A program made the translations under genes and the position numbers. Below, one piece after another: positions 1 to 8,357 of a DNA stretch of 64,000 bases. The stretch's first letter is position 1. Each line of letters begins with the position of its first letter. Under the pieces are notes generated by a model that ran no database searches, had not been told where the DNA came from, and saw nothing but the letters and a program-made list of their open reading frames with translations. Source of the DNA: Lacrimispora sphenoides. GTDB taxonomy: Bacteria > Bacillota > Clostridia > Lachnospirales > Lachnospiraceae. The stretch spans positions 682,001 through 746,000 of the forward strand of contig NZ_FOIP01000001.1 of assembly GCF_900105215.1 (NCBI RefSeq), written 5' to 3'.

Positions 1-690
1 AACCACCGCCTTAATCCGCCGGTACTGCTCTTCATCGATAATAATGGTCCTTCCTTCCCGGGAAATATACCCTTTCTCCTCCATTTGGCTGACACACCGG
101 TTCACGGTCTTTATGCAAAGACCGGTGCTGTTTGATAAATCTTTTCTTGCAAGCTGTATGCGGCAGGTCCCCCGATGGGATGATTTCCGGTAAATCTCCA
201 TAAAGAGCAGGAACAGCCTGTCACTTCCCTGTAAAAACAAAAACAGACGTTCCTTTCTGACCTGCTCTAAAAGATAGACGCCCATGGCCTTAACCTGTTC
301 TAAAACCGCATGGATATCCGAAAGCATCCAGCGGCTGAACTGATCCTTGGATACACAGAGGAACCGGCAGTCTGTTTCTGTCACCAGAGTCGTCCGGTAA
401 AGCTCAAAGCCCATAAGAAATTCCATAGCTCCAAACACCTCCACCGGATAGAATCTGGTATAGTCGTAGGCGATTTCCTGAACCCGGTAATCCGTAGCTT
501 TAACAACACCTTCTACCAGAATATAAATGGTATCCACGGTTTCATTTTCGTGAATAAAGGTGGTGCCCTTTTTTAGGTTTACTATCTTAAAGGCTTCCAG
601 GAGCCATTTAGGCGCATTGGCCAGATAATTATTTAAGTATTCCCGCGGCTCACTGTGAAGTTCATTGATTAAAGACATAGCATCGTTCAC
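1..690 (-). CDS. Crp/Fnr-family transcriptional regulator (3' end cut by window)
   Basis: Effector-binding regulator with an N-terminal cyclic-nucleotide-binding-like beta barrel (about residues 30-120), a long dimer helix and a C-terminal winged helix. The HTH part reads LSNSTGLCIKTVNRCVSQM, followed by a wing with EEKGYISREGRT. The N-terminal cysteine cluster of oxygen-sensing FNR is not seen, and the recognition helix (KTVNR) lacks FNR's E..SR pattern. I start at GTG 690 because AAAGGAG lies 7 nt upstream; an in-frame ATG at 678 is the alternative. 230 codons are visible with no stop, close to full length for the family. It follows the ABC permease gene by 86 bp on the same strand, so it may be the last gene of the yjjI operon and its regulator. 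Confidence 0.85.
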   Translation of the reverse strand, partial: MNDAMSLINELHSEPREYLNNYLANAPKWLLEAFKIVNLKKGTTFIHENETVDTIYILVEGVVKATDYRVQEIAYDYTRFYPVEVFGAMEFLMGFELYRTTLVTETDCRFLCVSKDQFSRWMLSDIHAVLEQVKAMGVYLLEQVRKERLFLFLQGSDRLFLLFMEIYRKSSHRGTCRIQLARKDLSNSTGLCIKTVNRCVSQMEEKGYISREGRTIIIDEEQYRRIKAVV

Positions 691-731
691 GATCTTGCTC
701 CTTTTCGTTTCTTTCTCTTTGATTTCATCAT

Positions 732-745
732 ATCATATTTATGAT
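732..745. promoter_or_regulatory. Small inverted repeat before the Crp/Fnr gene
   Basis: ATCATA and TATGAT flank a 2-nt spacer, about 45 bp upstream of the GTG start and next to TATGAT -10-like sequences. It could be a local promoter or autoregulatory site, but the region is A+T rich and the repeat is short. Confidence 0.2.
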
Positions 746-776
746 CCGCCGGGAATCATTACTTGCATCTAAGCAC

Positions 777-1694
777 TTACCTCGCATCCTTTTCGTATGG
801 CTGCCCGCTGGCTTTCGGCGCAGAGGATTTTCCCACAAACAGGATCAGGATCACGATAGTAATGAGATACGGAAGCATTGCCAGAATGGACGAAGGAACC
901 GCAAATCTTCCCCCTCCCAGAGTAACGGTAAGGGCCTGGGCTGCTCCGAATAACAGACAGGCACCATAAGCCCCGTGAGGAGTCCATTTTCCAAAAATAA
1001 CAGCTGCCAGTGCAATAAATCCCTGTCCGCTGATCGCGGTAGGCGTAAACTGAGGGATAATGGCCAGGGTCATGGACGCACCGCCCAGTCCTGCTAAAAT
1101 GCCGGAAACCAGCACACAGATATACCTGATTTTATAAACGTTAAGTCCCATGGTATCCGCTGCTGCCGGATGCTCTCCTACTGCCCGGATATGAAGCCCC
1201 CACTTTGTTTTATAAAGAAAGAACCAGATAAACACAGCCAGTACAAACGCGATGACAACGGTTACATCCACATTTAAATTCTGAAAAGCCTTTGAGTTTA
1301 AGCTCCCAAACACCTTTGGAATCTTATGAGGTACCGGGAGCGACATGGTAGCACCGTCAAAAAGCAGGCGGCAGACAAACAGAGCCACACCGGGACCGAT
1401 CAAATTGATGGCAATACCGGATATCGTCTGGTCCGCCTTGCATGTAATCGACGCAAAGGCATGGAGAAGGGCAATAACGCCTCCTGCCAGACCGGCTGCA
1501 AAAAATCCTACCCAGGCACTTCCTGAATAGTAACCCACAGTAGCCCCTGTAACTGCTCCGATGGTCATCATTCCTTCGATGCCGATATTGGTAACGCCGG
1601 ACCGCTCCGACACCACTCCCCCTAATGCTGCAAATACCAAAGGAGTGGAATACATAAGTGTAATGCCTACAAATAGCATCAGACTGTTAAGCAT
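777..1694 (-). CDS. ABC transporter permease, nucleoside (BMP/Nup) type, second subunit
   Basis: Inner-membrane permease of 305 residues with about eight to ten hydrophobic segments. The N-terminal stretch with GGVVSERSGVTNIGIEGMM is the hallmark of the second permease (NupQ/YufQ-like) of importers paired with BMP-family lipoproteins, which carry purine and other nucleosides. The start overlaps the preceding permease by 8 bp, so translation is probably coupled; GGGAGG lies 8 nt upstream. Substrate is inferred from family and neighbours, since the protein alone cannot separate nucleosides from related ligands. Confidence 0.88.
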   Translation of the reverse strand: MLNSLMLFVGITLMYSTPLVFAALGGVVSERSGVTNIGIEGMMTIGAVTGATVGYYSGSAWVGFFAAGLAGGVIALLHAFASITCKADQTISGIAINLIGPGVALFVCRLLFDGATMSLPVPHKIPKVFGSLNSKAFQNLNVDVTVVIAFVLAVFIWFFLYKTKWGLHIRAVGEHPAAADTMGLNVYKIRYICVLVSGILAGLGGASMTLAIIPQFTPTAISGQGFIALAAVIFGKWTPHGAYGACLLFGAAQALTVTLGGGRFAVPSSILAMLPYLITIVILILFVGKSSAPKASGQPYEKDAR

Positions 1695-2811
1695 GTTTCT
1701 TACCTCCCTTCGAAAAACGGTCCACCAGCGGCGGAATGATACGGGTCAGCGCCACAAAAAATACGATGACACCAATAACGATGTTGATAATTTCTGATGG
1801 AGCTCCCACCTCGTACTGCAAAGACTGGCCGCCATAGATCAAACCGCCAAACAGCAGTCCTGCAAAAATACAGCCGATTGGTGAACTGGCCGCAATCAGA
1901 CAAACGGATAATCCGTTAAAGCCCGTGTTTTCAAAGGCTGCTAATGTAGCAATGCCATGAGGAGAATTCCCGGTGATATAAAGAGACGCAGCCAGCCCGC
2001 AGATAGCCCCGGAAATAAGCATGGAGTGCAGGATGTTTCTGTTTACATAAATTCCGGAAAATTCTGCTGCGCTCTTATTAAAACCTACTGCTCTCAGTTC
2101 AAATCCCTTAGCCGTTTTATATAGAAGGAACCAGATAAAAACAGCCAGAATGACTGCTATAATAATTCCAACGTTTACATCTGTTTTCAAAACGGTGCTG
2201 CGAAGAAATTCATTCTGTGCAAGTGCCGCCTTTCCCGCCTCCGTGGTCTTGTAATTTCCCAGAATCATCGTGTAGCCGGAACGGTTGATCGGGTACGTTC
2301 CAATGGTATCCGGCTTATGGAACCGGTTTAAGGAGCATACATAATTGGAGAAATAAAGTGCAATCCAGTTCAGCATAATACTGGTAAGAACCTCATGGAT
2401 GCCGAACCTCGCCTTTAAGAAACCAGCAATCCCGCCATACACTGCCCCAGCTGCCACGCCAGCAAGGACAACGAGAGGAATCTGGATCACCGGAGGAAAA
2501 TCAAACAGAATGCCGACTATGGTAGATGCCACACATCCCATTATAAACTGTCCTTCGGCTCCAATGTTAAAAAGTCCGGTCTTAAACGCAAATGCAACGC
2601 CGATTCCCGTGAGAATGATAGGCGTACTTTTAATGATTACATTGGAAATGTGTTTCGGACTGGAAAAGACTCCGTCAAACAAGACGGTTAGTGAATGAAC
2701 CGGCGGATATCCCGCCGCCGCGAGTATGATCCCCGCTACGATAAATCCGAAGAAAACAGCGATCAAAGTCATTGTTAATGGTTTTTTTAAAATCTTTATC
2801 GCTTTATCCAT
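1687..2811 (-). CDS. ABC transporter permease, nucleoside (BMP/Nup) type, first subunit
   Basis: Inner-membrane permease of 374 residues, NupP/YufP-like. The conserved motif FKTGLFNIGAEGQF sits near residue 85. It has an N-terminal anchor helix, an extended external loop (about residues 165-205) and further membrane segments. AGGAGG is 8 nt before the ATG, and the gene overlaps both neighbours by 8 bp. With the ATPase, the other permease and the lipoprotein it makes a full importer. Confidence 0.88.
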   Translation of the reverse strand: MDKAIKILKKPLTMTLIAVFFGFIVAGIILAAAGYPPVHSLTVLFDGVFSSPKHISNVIIKSTPIILTGIGVAFAFKTGLFNIGAEGQFIMGCVASTIVGILFDFPPVIQIPLVVLAGVAAGAVYGGIAGFLKARFGIHEVLTSIMLNWIALYFSNYVCSLNRFHKPDTIGTYPINRSGYTMILGNYKTTEAGKAALAQNEFLRSTVLKTDVNVGIIIAVILAVFIWFLLYKTAKGFELRAVGFNKSAAEFSGIYVNRNILHSMLISGAICGLAASLYITGNSPHGIATLAAFENTGFNGLSVCLIAASSPIGCIFAGLLFGGLIYGGQSLQYEVGAPSEIINIVIGVIVFFVALTRIIPPLVDRFSKGGKKHA

Positions 2812-4339
2812 GGTTCTTTCCTCCTGCCATTAACAAACCGATCGTATTTTCATCTACGGTTCCCTGTTGAAACGTATCTTGAATTTTTCCGTCGTAAATG
2901 ACCGCTATGGTATCGGAAACATTCATGACCTCGTCCAGCTCAAAAGAGATCAAAAGCACCGCTTTTCCTTTATCCCTTTCACGGATAAGAGTCTTATGCA
3001 CGGTTTCAATGGCTCCTACGTCAAGTCCTCTGGTCGGCTGTACCGCAATCAGTATATCCGGATTCATGGCGACTTCACGTCCGATAATAACCTTCTGCTG
3101 GTTTCCACCGGAAAGTTCCCCCACTCTTCTGGAACCGCAGTCATCCGGCCGGACATCATATGCTTCGATGAGGGTTTGGGTAAACTCTTCCATTTTCTTT
3201 TTATTTAAGATCCCTTTTCTGGAAAATGGCTCTTTGCGGCAACGCTCCAATACCGCGTTCTCATTTACAGTGAAGTCAAGGACAAGACCCCTTTTCTGCC
3301 GGTCCTCAGGGATGATGCTGACACCGCTGTCTATGACCGTCCTTGGGTTTGTGTTAATGATCGGTTTCCCGCAGACCGTTATGCTTCCCTTTTCTGCAGG
3401 TACCAGGCTGCTGATCGCTTCCACCAGTTCCTTCTGCCCGTTTCCGTCAATACCGGCGATCCCCACGATTTCTCCTTTGCGGACTGTTAAGTTTAAACCC
3501 TTTACTGCTTCAAGCTTTCTCTCGTTTTTCACAACAAGGTCTTTGATTTCCAATACCGTTTCTCCCGGCTTTGCAGGAGTCTTATCCACCACCAGCTTTA
3601 CTTCATGGCCCACCATAAGCGCAGCCAGTTCTTGTCCGGAAACATTATCTACCGGAACCGTATCAATGTATTCGCCGCGGCGGATGATGGTACAGGTATC
3701 GGAAGATGCCTTTATTTCCTTTAATTTATGAGTGATGATGATGATTGCCTTTCCGTCATCTACCAGATTGTGCATAATGGAGAGAAGATCTTCAATTTCC
3801 TGAGGGGTCAGAACAGCGGTAGGCTCATCAAGGATTAACAGTTCTGCTCCCCGGTACAACGCCTTTAATATTTCCACCCTCTGCTGCATACCAACAGAAA
3901 TATCGCATATTCTGGCATCCGGGTCTACTTCCAGCCCATATTTTTCCACGATATCTAAAATCTGTTTCCTGGCCTTCTTCATATCTACAATACCTGCGCG
4001 GGAGGTAGTTTCATTTCCTAAAATAATATTCTGTGTGACCGTGAAATCCTCCACCAGCATAAAATGCTGATGAACCATACCGATGCCGTTTGCTATGGCC
4101 ACATTAGGATTTTTTATGTCCACCTTTTTCCCATTGATAAAGATTTCTCCCTCATCGGCCTGATACAATCCGTACAGTACATTCATCAGCGTCGACTTCC
4201 CCGCACCGTTTTCACCCAGAAGAGAATGAATGCTGCCCTTCTTAACATCCAGACTCATATCCTTCAAAGCGTAAAATGCCCCGAACCGTTTTGTGATTCC
4301 ATGCATCTGGACCGCATAATCGCTGTTTCCCGTGACCAT
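2804..4339 (-). CDS. ABC transporter ATP-binding protein, two nucleotide-binding domains (NupO-like)
   Basis: Cytoplasmic energising subunit of 511 residues with two tandem ABC domains, the arrangement of sugar and nucleoside importers. Domain 1 has Walker A GENGAGKST (42-50), a signature-like SVGMQQRVE and Walker B LLILDEPTA. Domain 2 has an altered Walker A (GIDGNGQKE), signature LSGGNQQKV and AVQPTRGLD at Walker B. Degeneracy of the second site is normal for this family. AGGAG lies 11-12 nt before the ATG. A strong hairpin separates it from the lipoprotein gene, which may keep this subunit less abundant than the binding protein. Confidence 0.92.
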   Translation of the reverse strand: MVTGNSDYAVQMHGITKRFGAFYALKDMSLDVKKGSIHSLLGENGAGKSTLMNVLYGLYQADEGEIFINGKKVDIKNPNVAIANGIGMVHQHFMLVEDFTVTQNIILGNETTSRAGIVDMKKARKQILDIVEKYGLEVDPDARICDISVGMQQRVEILKALYRGAELLILDEPTAVLTPQEIEDLLSIMHNLVDDGKAIIIITHKLKEIKASSDTCTIIRRGEYIDTVPVDNVSGQELAALMVGHEVKLVVDKTPAKPGETVLEIKDLVVKNERKLEAVKGLNLTVRKGEIVGIAGIDGNGQKELVEAISSLVPAEKGSITVCGKPIINTNPRTVIDSGVSIIPEDRQKRGLVLDFTVNENAVLERCRKEPFSRKGILNKKKMEEFTQTLIEAYDVRPDDCGSRRVGELSGGNQQKVIIGREVAMNPDILIAVQPTRGLDVGAIETVHKTLIRERDKGKAVLLISFELDEVMNVSDTIAVIYDGKIQDTFQQGTVDENTIGLLMAGGKNHG

Positions 4340-4360
4340 GTCAATACTATCTCCTTTCGG

Positions 4361-4399
4361 TTTTACACCGCAGGCTCTTTCGATTCCTGCGGTGTAAAA
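4361..4399 (-). promoter_or_regulatory. Intercistronic stem-loop between lipoprotein and ATPase genes
   Basis: Perfect 14-bp inverted repeat (TTTTACACCGCAGG at 4361-4374 with its complement at 4386-4399) and an 11-nt loop. On the minus strand no U-tract follows, so it looks like a processing or stabilising hairpin rather than a full terminator. Such elements commonly raise binding-protein mRNA over the downstream ABC genes. Confidence 0.6.
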
Positions 4400-4410
4400 T
4401 TTTTTCTCTT

Positions 4411-5466
4411 CTATTTAGCGATAAACGCTTCGTATTCATCTTTTGTGGTCGGCGGTGTCAGTTCTCCGTTTTTAATTTTATCCTTCACCTTTAAGGTATC
4501 CTCATAAACACCTTCCGGCATGTTGCCATGTTCTTCAGGAATTCCCACACAGTCTTCCTGTAAGCCGAAGGTAAGGGTTTTACCACCAATATCCTGGCCG
4601 TTCATTGCTTCTTCCGATACTTCCTCTACTGCTTTACCAACTAATTTAAGAGCAGATGTCAATACGTTTTCCGGTGCCAGATATGCCTGATCACGGTCTA
4701 CACCGATTACCCACTTGTCCGCTTCCTTGGCAGCCTCGATAACACCGGTTCCTGTGCCGCCAGCCGCGTGGTAGATCACGTCACAGCCATCAGAATACAT
4801 TCTAGCAGCAATGGCCTTTCCCTTAGCTGCATCACTAAAGCTTTCTGCATACTGCACAGAAATTTCAATATCTTTTCCAAGCTCTTTTGCCGCATACTTT
4901 ACGCCGGCTTCATAACCGTACTGGAACTGGTCGATTAAGCCTGAGGAGATTCCGCCTACAAAACCTACTTTTCCGGTCTGTGTGGTCCGTCCTGCCACAT
5001 ATCCAACCAGGAAGGAGGGTTCCTGGGCACGGAACATAACTCCAGTCACATTGGAAGGTGTATCCTCATAAGCATTGTCAATAATCGCATACTGGATATC
5101 AGGATTGCTGTCGGCTGCCTCCAGCACTGCATCAGCACAGGCGTAGCCTACGCCCCATAACAGATTGGCACCGCTGTCTCCCAGCCTTTCTAAATTCGTT
5201 ACGAAATCCGATGCCTGCTTTGACTCGATGTAGTTAACCTCTGCACCGGTCTTGTTCTTTAACTCAGTAAGGCCTTCCCATGCGGACTGGTTAAAGGACT
5301 GGTCATTGATTCCGCCTGTATCCGTAATCATTGCAACGGAAAAGCTGCTCTTTCCTCCGGAAGTTTCCTCCTGGGTTTTTGTGGTCTCCGTTTTTCCGCC
5401 TCCGCAAGCCGTAAGTGACAGCACCATTGCCGCTGTTAAACCAAATACAATACCTTTTCTCATCAT
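4411..5466 (-). CDS. BMP-family nucleoside-binding lipoprotein
   Basis: Surface-anchored binding protein of 351 residues (Bmp/PnrA/TmpC family). The N terminus is a lipoprotein signal with lipobox LTAC; the lipidated Cys is residue 21. The family motif GGINDQSFNQSAWEGL follows near residue 52. Proteins of this family bind purine nucleosides and deliver them to the cognate ABC permeases encoded next. The gene starts 24 bp after the yjjW stop on the same strand and has GGAGG upstream, so it is probably co-transcribed with yjjIW. Ligand identity is inferred from the family. Confidence 0.9.
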   Translation of the reverse strand: MMRKGIVFGLTAAMVLSLTACGGGKTETTKTQEETSGGKSSFSVAMITDTGGINDQSFNQSAWEGLTELKNKTGAEVNYIESKQASDFVTNLERLGDSGANLLWGVGYACADAVLEAADSNPDIQYAIIDNAYEDTPSNVTGVMFRAQEPSFLVGYVAGRTTQTGKVGFVGGISSGLIDQFQYGYEAGVKYAAKELGKDIEISVQYAESFSDAAKGKAIAARMYSDGCDVIYHAAGGTGTGVIEAAKEADKWVIGVDRDQAYLAPENVLTSALKLVGKAVEEVSEEAMNGQDIGGKTLTFGLQEDCVGIPEEHGNMPEGVYEDTLKVKDKIKNGELTPPTTKDEYEAFIAK

Positions 5467-5490
5467 AACCTGATTCCTCCATTTTTCATT

Positions 5491-6354
5491 CTATACAATT
5501 TGTATTTCTTTAAACCCACATTGAACCGCCAGTTCCTTTAATTTCTCCATTTGGTCCTGAGTAGGGCTTTTTCTATGTTCCATTTTACCTCTCACCCCAT
5601 AATTGCGGAATGTAATAAGCTTTAATCTGAAATCCTCCAGATAAGGGGTTACTTCGGCGGCCACTCCTTTGATGACCTCCTCCATGTCCACATCTTTATC
5701 TTCTGCCAGACCGGAAGAAGATTCTCCCTCCAGACATACAAGCCTTACCTCATATAATTTACCTGCCTGGGCCAGATAGTTCAGATTCTTTTTAACAATA
5801 CCATTATCTCCGCCTGTCAGCCTGTGAAACACCTGGGAGTCCCACGCTTTCACATCCAGCATGACTTTATCCGTCACAGCCATGAGCTCCGGATGCTTTG
5901 TGAAATCCACGCAGCCATTGCTGTCCAGAAAACAAGATATCCCGGCTTTCCCTGCAAGTGTGAACAATTCTGTGAGAAATTCCGGATACAGGCCGCATTC
6001 ACCGCCGGATACTGTGATCCCCTGAATAAACGGTATATTTTTTGAAATCTGTTCCCAGACGTCCATAGCCTCCATCCACCGAACCTTTGGAGATGCGTAA
6101 TTGGGACAGACCCGTATGCAATGATCGCACTGGGTACAGACTGCCTCATCCCATATGACCTGTTTCCCTGATAGGGATAAGGCGCCTGCCGGACACTGGC
6201 TGACACAAACGCCGCAGCCATTGCACAGCCGCTGTGTCTCCGGGTTATGGCAGTAAGCGCAGGCGATATTGCAGCCCTGGACAAACACCGCAGTCCGGCA
6301 GCCCGGCCCGTCTACTACACTTAAGGGAATCATTTTGTTAATAGCGGCTCTCAC
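5491..6354 (-). CDS. yjjW: YjjW-type glycyl-radical enzyme activase (radical SAM)
   Basis: Activating enzyme of 287 residues that installs a glycyl radical on its partner using SAM. The radical-SAM triad is C28, C32, C35 (GCNIACAYCHN), with GITVSGGE in the SAM-binding region. An inserted ferredoxin-like segment carries two further 4Fe-4S motifs: C44/C47/C50/C54 and C73/C76/C79/C83. Its ATG overlaps the yjjI stop by 4 bp, so enzyme and activase are translationally coupled. The same pair sits next to the deo nucleoside-catabolism genes in E. coli. Confidence 0.92.
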   Translation of the reverse strand: MRAAINKMIPLSVVDGPGCRTAVFVQGCNIACAYCHNPETQRLCNGCGVCVSQCPAGALSLSGKQVIWDEAVCTQCDHCIRVCPNYASPKVRWMEAMDVWEQISKNIPFIQGITVSGGECGLYPEFLTELFTLAGKAGISCFLDSNGCVDFTKHPELMAVTDKVMLDVKAWDSQVFHRLTGGDNGIVKKNLNYLAQAGKLYEVRLVCLEGESSSGLAEDKDVDMEEVIKGVAAEVTPYLEDFRLKLITFRNYGVRGKMEHRKSPTQDQMEKLKELAVQCGFKEIQIV

Positions 6355-7847
6355 TGCAGCCCCCTTACCTTCCGGTTCTCAAGATGGGCATTGCGGTAAT
6401 TGTCTCCGCCCAGATGCACCGTATTCTGGAGTACGGCTTCGCCTTCATAATATTTTTCCATTTCGCTCCGTTTGACCAGATATCCCGTGATACGGACCAG
6501 ATCGCTGTCAGAAGCATAGAAGCTTATATATTTGTCCCCCAGAGAAAACGCTCCTTTTACGATATCCAGCATGGCGGCCGGATTGTTTCTTCCTGTGGGA
6601 TCAAAGGAGAAGATATCCGCGCAGCCAGTCGGGAAAAACTTGTGGAACCTGGCGCTGTGACGAAGGTGATCATACATGAGTTCCGGCTCCATCCCTACCG
6701 GGATCCGCACGCCTGAGGTAATGCCATGGTCCGAATCGATGCCGACCTGGGCGTGAAGGGCAAAGTGATTGTCAAAAACCTCTGAATATAAGGCATTTGC
6801 AGTACCAGCATAATCCGCAATCACCTTCATGATCTGCTCTGCTAAGTCATCTGCTTCTGCATTGTGACCATATGTTTTCTCCGGATCTTGCATCAGCATG
6901 TTTGTACATTCCGCCAGCCCAACGACTCCGAACATTGCAAGGAACTTTTCCCTGGAAATAAAGCCTTCCTTAGAGAGGAAAGAGGTCTCAAAGAAATTGG
7001 ATTCTTCTACAAGGAAACGGATTCTTTCATTCATATAGTCCCCCATGCGGGAAAGACAATCAGGCAATAGCTCTGTTAAAAACTGTTCCCTGTTCCTTGC
7101 TTCCGCAGCAAGCCTGGGAAGGACGATTCTCGATAATGTGTAGGAACCTCCGCCAATGGGAAGGATATTATAACAACTTGATATCCCGTAATCACCGTAA
7201 GTGTCATTGTGCATCTTGTGATTGCAGATCGCCGGGTTTGCACAATACAGAGAGGTATAAAGGGCAAGCTCTGCATAAGAATCAGGCGTAATGTCCTTAT
7301 CATATTTCAGCGTTAAATTAGGAACCGCATTTTGAAGTTCTTTTTCAAGTTTTAAAATCAGGCGGCCTGCTCTTGTCTCTTCCGGTCCCAAATTAGCATG
7401 GCAGAAGCCATCGGTTATGGTCCGGTCCAAATAAACGAGGAAGAGCCTCAGCTTTTTTTCCGCTTCCTCATCCGTAACCCCTTCAAGAAACGGCTCTATC
7501 AGTTTATCAATATTGCCAAGATAAACAGGATAGCTGGTGATAGAGGGAACGTGGCGGTACAGAATCGTCAGAAACTGCAATACTTCGTCCAGGTCCTTAG
7601 GCGCCTCAAGCTGTAAAAATTCACAGCCGTTTTTTACTGCTTTTTCATAGTCCGGCATCACATATCTGGGACGGTAAGGCGCGTGTCCTTCATCCAGATC
7701 GCAAATCGCACCGGTGTCCTTGTAATGACGGGTTGCTTCCGGTATGGAAAGCACCTCCAGACTATTTTCCGCCGCATGGGCCAGAGCCACAACTTTCTGC
7801 TCATAAGTCAGGTTCTTTGATGTTACAATGTCTAAAATTTTATTCAT
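6351..7847 (-). CDS. yjjI: YjjI-type glycyl-radical enzyme (function unknown)
   Basis: Glycyl-radical enzyme of the YjjI/DUF3029 family. The C-terminal radical loop reads DLVRITGYLVKRSE; the radical Gly is residue 455 from the chosen start. A candidate thiyl-radical Cys lies in GISSCYNILPIGGG (C225). Length of 498 residues fits the family and is much shorter than pyruvate formate-lyase. I choose ATG 7847 because AGAGG sits 8 nt upstream; an in-frame ATG at 7865 would add six residues and has no good site. The reaction is unknown. It heads an operon with its activase and a nucleoside-type importer, which suggests a nucleoside- or deoxyribose-derived substrate. Radical chemistry implies anaerobic function. 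Confidence 0.9.
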   Translation of the reverse strand: MNKILDIVTSKNLTYEQKVVALAHAAENSLEVLSIPEATRHYKDTGAICDLDEGHAPYRPRYVMPDYEKAVKNGCEFLQLEAPKDLDEVLQFLTILYRHVPSITSYPVYLGNIDKLIEPFLEGVTDEEAEKKLRLFLVYLDRTITDGFCHANLGPEETRAGRLILKLEKELQNAVPNLTLKYDKDITPDSYAELALYTSLYCANPAICNHKMHNDTYGDYGISSCYNILPIGGGSYTLSRIVLPRLAAEARNREQFLTELLPDCLSRMGDYMNERIRFLVEESNFFETSFLSKEGFISREKFLAMFGVVGLAECTNMLMQDPEKTYGHNAEADDLAEQIMKVIADYAGTANALYSEVFDNHFALHAQVGIDSDHGITSGVRIPVGMEPELMYDHLRHSARFHKFFPTGCADIFSFDPTGRNNPAAMLDIVKGAFSLGDKYISFYASDSDLVRITGYLVKRSEMEKYYEGEAVLQNTVHLGGDNYRNAHLENRKVRGLQ

Positions 7848-7922
7848 CCATCCTACCTCTTTCATTTCAAGTCTTATCCATCATAAAAGGACTTATATCT
7901 CTGATACCCCTGAAATATTCAC

Positions 7923-7966
7923 ATTATAGCAATAACTTTTCACTATCTAAAGGACTTATGTCCTTT
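7923..7966 (-). promoter_or_regulatory. yjjI operon promoter with Crp/Fnr-like operator at -41.5
   Basis: On the minus strand TATAAT (7928-7923) is preceded at 17 bp by a weak -35 TTTAGA (7951-7946). An inverted repeat AAAGGAC-N4-GTCCTTT (7966-7949) overlaps the -35. With +1 near 7916 its centre falls at -41.5, the class II activator position used by Crp/Fnr proteins. A second half-site sharing ATAAGTCCTTT lies downstream at 7896-7886. The 4-bp spacer and arm layout match Crp/Fnr sites, but the GGAC/GTCC core differs from FNR (TTGAT) and Crp. The regulator gene at the operon end is the obvious candidate. Confidence 0.6.
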
Positions 7967-8311: not shown

Positions 8312-8357
8312 ACAAAAAGAAAAAGCCGAACCCCTTATAAATAAAGGGCTCGGCTTT
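8312..8357 (-). terminator. tuf terminator
   Basis: Just after the tuf stop, GC-rich arms (AAGCCGAGCCCTT and its near complement) form a stem with a short A+T loop, followed on the minus strand by a U-rich tail. This is a standard intrinsic terminator closing the fusA-tuf end of the cluster. Confidence 0.85.

Follow-up and report, generated by a model that had tools for sequence, protein, structure and literature searches.

A YjjI-family glycyl-radical enzyme in a probable nucleoside-catabolism operon of Lacrimispora sphenoides

A stretch of 64,000 nucleotides from Lacrimispora sphenoides (contig NZ_FOIP01000001.1, here G000:C1:682001-746000, in the following called the window) carries yjjI, the gene of an oxygen-sensitive glycyl-radical enzyme found in E. 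coli and various anaerobes. It lies together with yjjW, the gene of its radical S-adenosylmethionine (SAM) activase, beside a nucleoside-type ATP-binding cassette (ABC) importer and a regulator of the Crp/Fnr family. In those parts of the open-access literature on YjjI that were consulted, neither an assigned reaction nor a description of a linkage to this importer was found. Gene families were assigned with Pfam and NCBIfam models against the curated cut-offs, and the left flank past the window edge was taken as stretch L003.

The minus strand from 7865 to 1 carries seven genes, as an earlier note on this DNA had read them: yjjI, yjjW, a BMP lipoprotein, the importer ATPase, two permeases and the crp/fnr gene (Table 1). 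The spacings in this order are an overlap of 4, gaps of 24 and 71, two overlaps of 8 and a gap of 86; the values agree with those given before, where 4, 8 and 8 denote overlaps. Beyond the left edge of the window the same strand continues with udp (gap of 17 after crp), deoD (overlap of 11) and cdd (gap of 26). The result is a ten-gene order, yjjI-yjjW-bmp-ATPase-permease-permease-crp/fnr-udp-deoD-cdd, on a single strand with intergenic distances from -11 to 86.

Table 1. Features of the ten-gene block and its upstream region. Positions refer to the window, or to contig C1 of genome G000 where this is indicated.
Feature	Position	Strand	Description
yjjI	6351..7865	-	glycyl-radical enzyme, 504 aa (amino acids); TIGR04040 686.6 bits (cut-off 498.3); Pfam YjjI-like 711.6 bits, NRDD 35.6 bits
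yjjW	5491..6354	-	radical-SAM activase of YjjI with ferredoxin-type Cys motifs; TIGR04041 359.6 bits (cut-off 250.2); Pfam Radical_SAM and Fer4
BMP/PnrA-type nucleoside-binding lipoprotein	4411..5466	-	351 aa; Pfam Bmp 296 bits (cut-off 24.1)
ABC importer ATPase	2804..4339	-	511 aa, two nucleotide-binding domains; ABC_tran in two stretches
ABC importer permease 1	1687..2811	-	BPD_transp_2 119.8 bits
ABC importer permease 2	777..1694	-	BPD_transp_2 140.1 bits
Crp/Fnr-family regulator	1..690	-	239 aa; cNMP_binding and HTH_Crp_2; ends 30 bases outside the window, at G000:C1:681971
udp (uridine phosphorylase)	C1:681177-681953	-	TIGR01718 320.9 bits, over cut-off
deoD (DeoD-type purine nucleoside phosphorylase)	C1:680453-681187	-	TIGR00107 305.6 bits, over cut-off
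cdd (cytidine deaminase)	C1:679932-680426	-	TIGR01354 137.8 bits, over cut-off
Intrinsic terminator separating tuf from the operon	8322..8357	-	16-pair stem, T-rich tail
-10 element TATAAT of the presumed operon promoter	7923..7928	-	transcription start assumed
Palindrome AGGAC-ATAA-GTCCT upstream of yjjI	7951..7964	-	may be bound by the linked Crp/Fnr protein; no second exact match in the window

The block has a terminator on its upstream side, towards tuf, and 3' of cdd there is a hairpin with a z-score of -5.46 (0 of 200 shuffles equally stable) and few T in its tail. By eye this second hairpin (L003:16850-16925, minus strand) is like the tuf terminator at 8322-8357 in sequence. A terminator scan of the minus strand from permease 2 to crp gave no terminator-like site, and weak matches of the scanner fall once inside udp and twice inside deoD. 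The block is most simply one operon, as predicted from the common strand, the short gaps and the flanking terminator-like hairpins, and its ten genes would then be transcribed together. Very likely it encodes a machinery for the import and splitting of nucleosides.

The lipoprotein matches solved nucleoside-binding proteins in sequence, namely Lbp of C. thermocellum (7x0r), BmpA (9q1u) and BmpD (6shu) of Borrelia and PnrA/TmpC of Treponema (2fqw). In the Lbp structure, guanosine was fitted by its authors to unexplained density (PMC9601137). We transferred pocket positions by hand along the alignment with the solved structures, using the residues named for the thymidine pocket of BmpA (PMC13325309), and checked the letters in the window. 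Eleven of the 12 BmpA pocket positions are identical in the lipoprotein (D49, D55, F58, N59, D130, F181, F210, A234, V256, D257 and K274) and the sole change is I147 to Leu (L177 of the lipoprotein); both the aromatic sandwich and the polar sugar contacts are in place. Among 48 yjjI-linked Bmp proteins K274 is kept in 48, each of D55, D130, F181, F210, V256 and D257 in 46, N59 and A234 in 42, F58 in 37 and D49 in 36. Because the pocket residues are kept and udp, deoD and cdd lie just outside the window, the earlier claim that the importer carries nucleosides is supported, at the level of the pocket. The system resembles the PnrA, BmpA and BmpD lipoproteins with their ABC importers in the Bmp family, in these pocket positions, in the two-domain ATPase and in the two permeases. 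It differs from them in being linked to a glycyl-radical enzyme.

Loci carrying yjjI in other genomes were collected from two sources. Eighty loci with named organisms came from one scan of genome contigs with a 17-member YjjI alignment led by the YjjI of the window. Searched with TIGR04040, whole genomes yielded matches for 19 of 393 in the class and 27 of 323 in the order. For the phyla of G450, G451 and G449 the figures were 20 of 299, 6 of 198 (the centre being one of them) and 1 of 296 (the centre and no other). The flanks were read with profile hidden Markov models built from the window, from E. coli and from neighbouring genes. Genes were called by a simple longest-open-reading-frame script, by which some were missed, e.g. 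the bmp adjoining yjjI in L115. A yjjI gene was called in 151 of 154 loci (L038, L076 and L082 were dropped), and 135 of these were non-redundant at 95% identity. An importer was counted where a permease of this family together with a Bmp or ABC ATPase match was found within eight called genes of yjjI.

By this definition 52 of the 135 non-redundant loci have an importer, a figure that overstates the linkage because 80 loci are the closest relatives of the window-led alignment; an importer or a nucleoside enzyme is found in 65 of the 135. As a control, 20 arbitrary 20-kb regions of yjjI-bearing genomes were read in the same manner, and an importer was found in one, itself a deoC-bmp-ABC cluster. 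Loci with at least six genes on each side gave 38 of 89 for the importer and 46 of 89 for importer or nucleoside enzyme. Taxon-even draws gave 27 of 66 against the 1 of 20 controls (Fisher p 0.0023). Taken singly, these draws contributed 4/18 (class; one of these four, G295, is of the window's own family), 4/18 (phylum of G450), 0/5 (phylum of G451, where L125 with both permeases at a contig end was left uncounted), 19/24 (own order) and 0/1 (G060, own order). By kinship the linkage amounts to 20 of 26 loci inside the order of the window and 7 of 40 outside, where the two other phyla are taken as outside.

Outside the order, a linked Bmp gene is present in 7 of 35 YjjI-positive genomes (G184, G249, G355, G458, G578, G628 and G716) against 0.37 expected, which corresponds to a Poisson P of about 1e-7 if phylogeny is ignored. 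The expectation takes in the Bmp gene count and the size of each genome, with 17 kb allowed for a neighbourhood, over 17 genomes of the class and 18 of the phylum of G450 (G523 and G645 without a Bmp count). On a YjjI tree of 131 of the 135 rows, made by a quick method with a simple model, at least 11 changes of linkage state are needed, with 108 rows labelled and 52 of them linked. The order yjjI-yjjW-bmp-ATPase occurs in 16 loci, and in 21 of the 135 loci yjjI, with or without yjjW, lies inside the importer operon between bmp and the ATPase gene; in further arrangements the importer is ahead of yjjI or divergent from it. Chance adjacency of yjjI and importer was rejected on the locus counts, the placement between lipoprotein and ATPase, the changes on the tree and the Bmp expectation. 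The earlier note had made its reading depend on yjjIW being found with BMP importers or deo genes in other genomes, and these counts are in its favour.

We also compared 40 YjjI-positive with 40 YjjI-negative genomes, out of more known. Bmp is present in 38 against 29 (p 0.013) and DeoC in 40 against 34 (p 0.026), which is weak support for a nucleoside link because the two groups are unmatched by lineage.

Among the 135 loci the neighbours of yjjI include pyrimidine genes (udp 21, cdd 20, psuG 6), purine genes (deoD 10, add 9, pnp 4) and sugar genes (deoC 12, deoB 8, ribokinase 1), as well as deoA in 6 loci and a nucleoside hydrolase in 3. Hungatella hathewayi (L025) has the gene order of the window with deoC and a small extra frame. 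Texcoconibacillus (L030) has the order crp-yjjI-yjjW-nucleoside hydrolase-ribokinase-nucleoside hydrolase in a genome without a Bmp match, and psuK and psuG lie nearby in five non-redundant Clostridial loci without importer. Genes for purine and pyrimidine nucleosides, in ribo- and deoxy- form, are thus all neighbours of yjjI, and their common denominator is the pentose or its phosphate. We consider the sugar part of the nucleoside the probable target of YjjI. The earlier note had proposed a nucleoside- or deoxyribose-derived compound: the nucleoside part agrees with the importer linkage and its specificity, but deoxyribose is not favoured over ribose, because nucleoside hydrolases with ribokinase, and psuK/psuG, are also found beside yjjI. 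As a whole its interpretation is partly supported.

The same neighbours can be read as pointing to the base, with uracil as the shared product of cdd plus udp, of psuG and of uridine-preferring hydrolases. The frequency of cdd and udp, and the psuK/psuG and uridine-hydrolase-like genes, agree with this. Purine genes are present as well, and so are sugar genes, among them the isomerase and aldolase of L157. Chemistry on the base appears unlikely to us, with no search aimed at base-degrading genes.

At locus L157 yjjIW is accompanied by the importer, a DeoR-like regulator, a class II aldolase and an MtnA-type isomerase that passes its cut-off with 448.5 bits; the best models for the aldolase are fuculose-phosphate and ribulose-1-phosphate aldolase, both below their cut-offs. 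L136 has a 5'-deoxyadenosine-deaminase-like gene, below cut-off, together with pnp. From these two loci YjjI could be placed in the salvage of 5'-deoxynucleosides, the by-products of radical-SAM enzymes, through the dihydroxyacetone phosphate shunt. The shunt is described as phosphorylation, isomerisation and aldol cleavage (PMC6079011, PMC10986504), and in this form it needs no radical enzyme. Furthermore, the isomerase and aldolase of L157 could serve ribose-1-phosphate, and such genes were seen in two of the 135 loci, the two that were searched for them. We regard such a salvage role as very improbable.

Other genes recur at yjjI loci. Cluster c26 (L101:18468-19109 and seven further yjjI loci) is a protein of 209-236 amino acids, multi-pass membrane by eye, that recurs near the nucleoside importer; its member in L101 has no Pfam match and no NCBIfam match at 1e-20. 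In one clade (L142, L144, L147-L150), genes of about 280-300 and 185-200 amino acids stand ahead of bmp-yjjI-yjjW-ABC, and the first of these, at L148:6156-6998, encodes a fumarase-family protein.

In front of yjjI lies the palindrome listed in Table 1. With an assumed spacing of six bases from the -10 element to the transcription start, it is centred at -41.5, where class II Crp/Fnr activators bind. It aligns in 10 of 10 compared loci of the genus and near relatives, where the arms are kept and the spacer varies (ATGA, AAAT). Of the core GGACN4GTCC there are 14 copies in the 62 kb of sequence upstream of yjjI, compared with 40 in 2.7 Mb overall. Counting redundant loci too, a linked crp is found in 31 loci, 9 of which have the core upstream of yjjI and 22 of which lack it; among 120 loci without a linked crp, 3 have it. 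The core thus marks mainly the close relatives of the window. Matches in the window with up to one mismatch number two, which is within chance (30 of 100 shuffles), and the case for the palindrome is made because it is conserved and well positioned. As a genome-wide regulon site the palindrome was rejected: it is not enriched, and a reversed control pattern gave 30 rows versus 14. The genome has seven distinct exact matches, and the one that repeats the yjjI site letter for letter is part of a terminator hairpin.

The linked Crp/Fnr protein may bind this palindrome. A motif [KR]T[VI]NR in the C-terminal part of 18 of 26 yjjI-linked regulators was taken as their recognition helix. FNR carries Fe-S cysteines at its N-terminus. 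The regulator of the window has no Cys in its first 40 residues and scores 21 bits with the FNR model (cut-off 228); of the 26 linked regulators, 22 have no Cys in this region and four have one. Oxygen sensing of the FNR type by the linked regulator was rejected for want of the N-terminal Cys, and the anaerobic control expected in the earlier note gets no support from this regulator. In the literature, yjjI of E. coli is named among the direct targets of activation by FNR (PMC3688515), yjjI and yjjW of Yersinia are tabulated in a transcriptome study of aerobic and anaerobic conditions (PMC3792023), and binding of Crp at yjjI/deoC was reported for one E. coli strain (PMC4287617).

The FNR listing and the grouping of E. 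coli yjjI with nitrate-regulated genes would fit a YjjI with an unrelated anaerobic task that is merely co-expressed with nucleoside uptake, as would the loci in which no linkage is seen (70 of the 135, and those of Vibrio and Proteus described below). Against this stands the recurrence of the linkage in different gene orders, including the position between lipoprotein and ATPase, and we hold co-regulation by itself to be an improbable explanation.

The TIGR04040 match of the window YjjI spans profile positions 1-497, with the family cut-off passed across the whole length. Its thiyl Cys231 and radical Gly461 (in the RITGY loop) are invariant in 107 of 107 aligned YjjI proteins, and Cys231 is the only invariant Cys. 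The nearest predicted fold of the YjjI model, which has a predicted local distance difference test score (pLDDT) of 95, is class III (anaerobic) ribonucleotide reductase, NrdD, with the catalytic barrel in place; the VIA-align rows are a re-examination of Foldseek hits only. A profile alignment of YjjI with NrdD covers 326 columns, and a sequence search of the PDB with the YjjI profile gave its best match to NrdD (E 0.004), a search in which the single YjjI sequence found no match.

YjjI is nevertheless set apart from NrdD by several features. It scores 22.8 bits with the NrdD family model TIGR02487 (cut-off 326.35), it has no Pfam match to an ATP-cone, and the C-terminal zinc cysteines are missing from the window YjjI, where no Cys follows residue 415. 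YjjI was accordingly rejected as a true ribonucleotide reductase. In class III ribonucleotide reductase one second active-site cysteine is conserved (PMC4493059); by global profile alignment its position falls on R67-Y68 of YjjI, in a weakly aligned part, and no second Cys is invariant in YjjI. The position aligned to the Asn after GRG in NrdD is Ser or Ala in 104 of 107 YjjI.

Glycyl-radical dehydratases carry C-x-E at the thiyl cysteine. YjjI has C231-Y-N233 instead, with N233 in 107 of 107, and was rejected on this ground as an ordinary glycyl-radical dehydratase; relative to the glycerol, propanediol, hydroxyproline and PflD/YbiW types it also stands nearer NrdD.

The kinship to NrdD would also fit an enzyme of supply, i.e. 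a free-nucleoside counterpart of the anaerobic reductase that deoxygenates imported ribonucleosides or ribose phosphates to deoxynucleosides for DNA salvage. Nucleoside phosphorylases, found among the yjjI neighbours, are reversible, and C55 (Cys in 90 of 107) and C155 (79 of 107) leave room for a second active-site Cys in the window YjjI. This role is unlikely in our judgement, as the residue differences from NrdD described above speak against it, the nearby cdd, deoC, deoB and nucleoside hydrolases point to breakdown, and the host genome already has four NRDD matches, one partial. The partial match (G000:C1:3345314-3346387) covers profile positions 224-562 only, in a frame of 1103 amino acids that is longer than the other listed NrdD frames and may carry an insert or a fusion.

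We propose that the block is one nucleoside-catabolism operon in which YjjI acts on the nucleoside sugar, and give this explanation as a whole a probability of roughly 0.6. Nucleosides would enter by the lipoprotein and the ABC importer, cytidine would be converted to uridine by Cdd, and Udp and DeoD would use phosphate to split nucleosides into base and (deoxy)ribose-1-phosphate. YjjW would install the glycyl radical on Gly461 of YjjI, from where it would pass to Cys231. This residue would abstract a hydrogen atom of the substrate, most likely at a sugar carbon of a free pentose phosphate or of the intact nucleoside. An elimination resembling the first half of the ribonucleotide reductase reaction is the probable chemistry, and the product would be a deoxygenated sugar that aldolases such as DeoC could cleave into C2 and C3 units. 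The linked Crp/Fnr protein would turn the operon on from the palindrome.

A more specific version makes YjjI a breakdown-side cousin of anaerobic ribonucleotide reductase. Ribose-1-phosphate, ribose-5-phosphate or a free ribonucleoside would undergo radical 3'-H abstraction and lose its 2'-OH, and the deoxygenated pentose would feed DeoC or a similar aldolase. In this detailed form the scheme is rather doubtful.

Several observations weigh against the proposal that YjjI belongs to nucleoside catabolism. At 70 of the 135 loci the search out to eight genes from yjjI found no importer and no nucleoside enzyme, and the importer is found in only 2 of the 15 loci titled Clostridium. Outside the own order, the 7 of 40 loci with importer do not differ significantly from the controls (p 0.25). 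The association with DeoC is weak, and DeoC is common anyway; deoC is moreover no part of this operon. No recognised deo, udp or importer genes were found within 9 kb of yjjI-yjjW in Vibrio THAF190c and Proteus mirabilis H63. Likewise no recognised nucleoside genes were found within 9 kb of yjjI in Haliovirga, where a gene for a cyclic-nucleotide-binding regulator is divergent to yjjI, nor at a yjjI locus on a Chloroflexota plasmid, apart from a ribokinase gene starting about 9 kb away. The yjjI-yjjW pair of Haliovirga abyssi (Fusobacteriota) also lies on a plasmid, pHIC (L230:8230-11356). Gene calling in the Aeromonas stretch gave no yjjI. Locus L164 does have the importer, but an endonuclease III type protein, a glycosyl transferase and a polyprenyl synthetase, its other neighbours, are without a role in nucleoside metabolism. 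The reaction is not fixed by any pattern of catalytic residues, as neither C-x-E nor an invariant second Cys is present in the 107 YjjI. Finally, nitrogen metabolism was proposed for E. coli YjjI from co-expression (PMC3228777).

The E. coli pair belongs to the same two families (TIGR04040 and TIGR04041), with 41% identity between its YjjI and that of the window, and likewise lies beside nucleoside-catabolism genes. Its position next to deoCABD, named in the earlier note, was found in K-12 with yjjI-yjjW divergent from deoCABD and with no BMP importer in the 17 kb examined, in contrast to the pair of the window, which is in one run with importer, regulator and phosphorylases. The deo neighbourhood, seen in one strain of E. 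coli, is not shared by the two other Gammaproteobacteria examined, which also counts against the proposal.

Some 5 kb further on from cdd, the minus strand likely carries a cluster for the recycling of N-acetylmuramic acid (L003:7928-12210, G000:C1:670928-675210). From their sequences we take its members to be an RpiR-type regulator, an etherase-like protein, a phosphotransferase system (PTS) enzyme II-like protein and a protein of 349 amino acids.

The recurrent placement of yjjI among nucleoside genes and a fold nearest to ribonucleotide reductase narrow the candidate substrates to a short, testable list. If the sugar is the target, a radical step would be added to nucleoside catabolism, a source of carbon and energy where nucleic acids abound, e.g. 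in the gut. In the more specific, rather doubtful version, anaerobes would cleave the pentose of imported nucleosides by a glycyl-radical route, under a dedicated Crp/Fnr-type regulator with a GGAC-N4-GTCC site.

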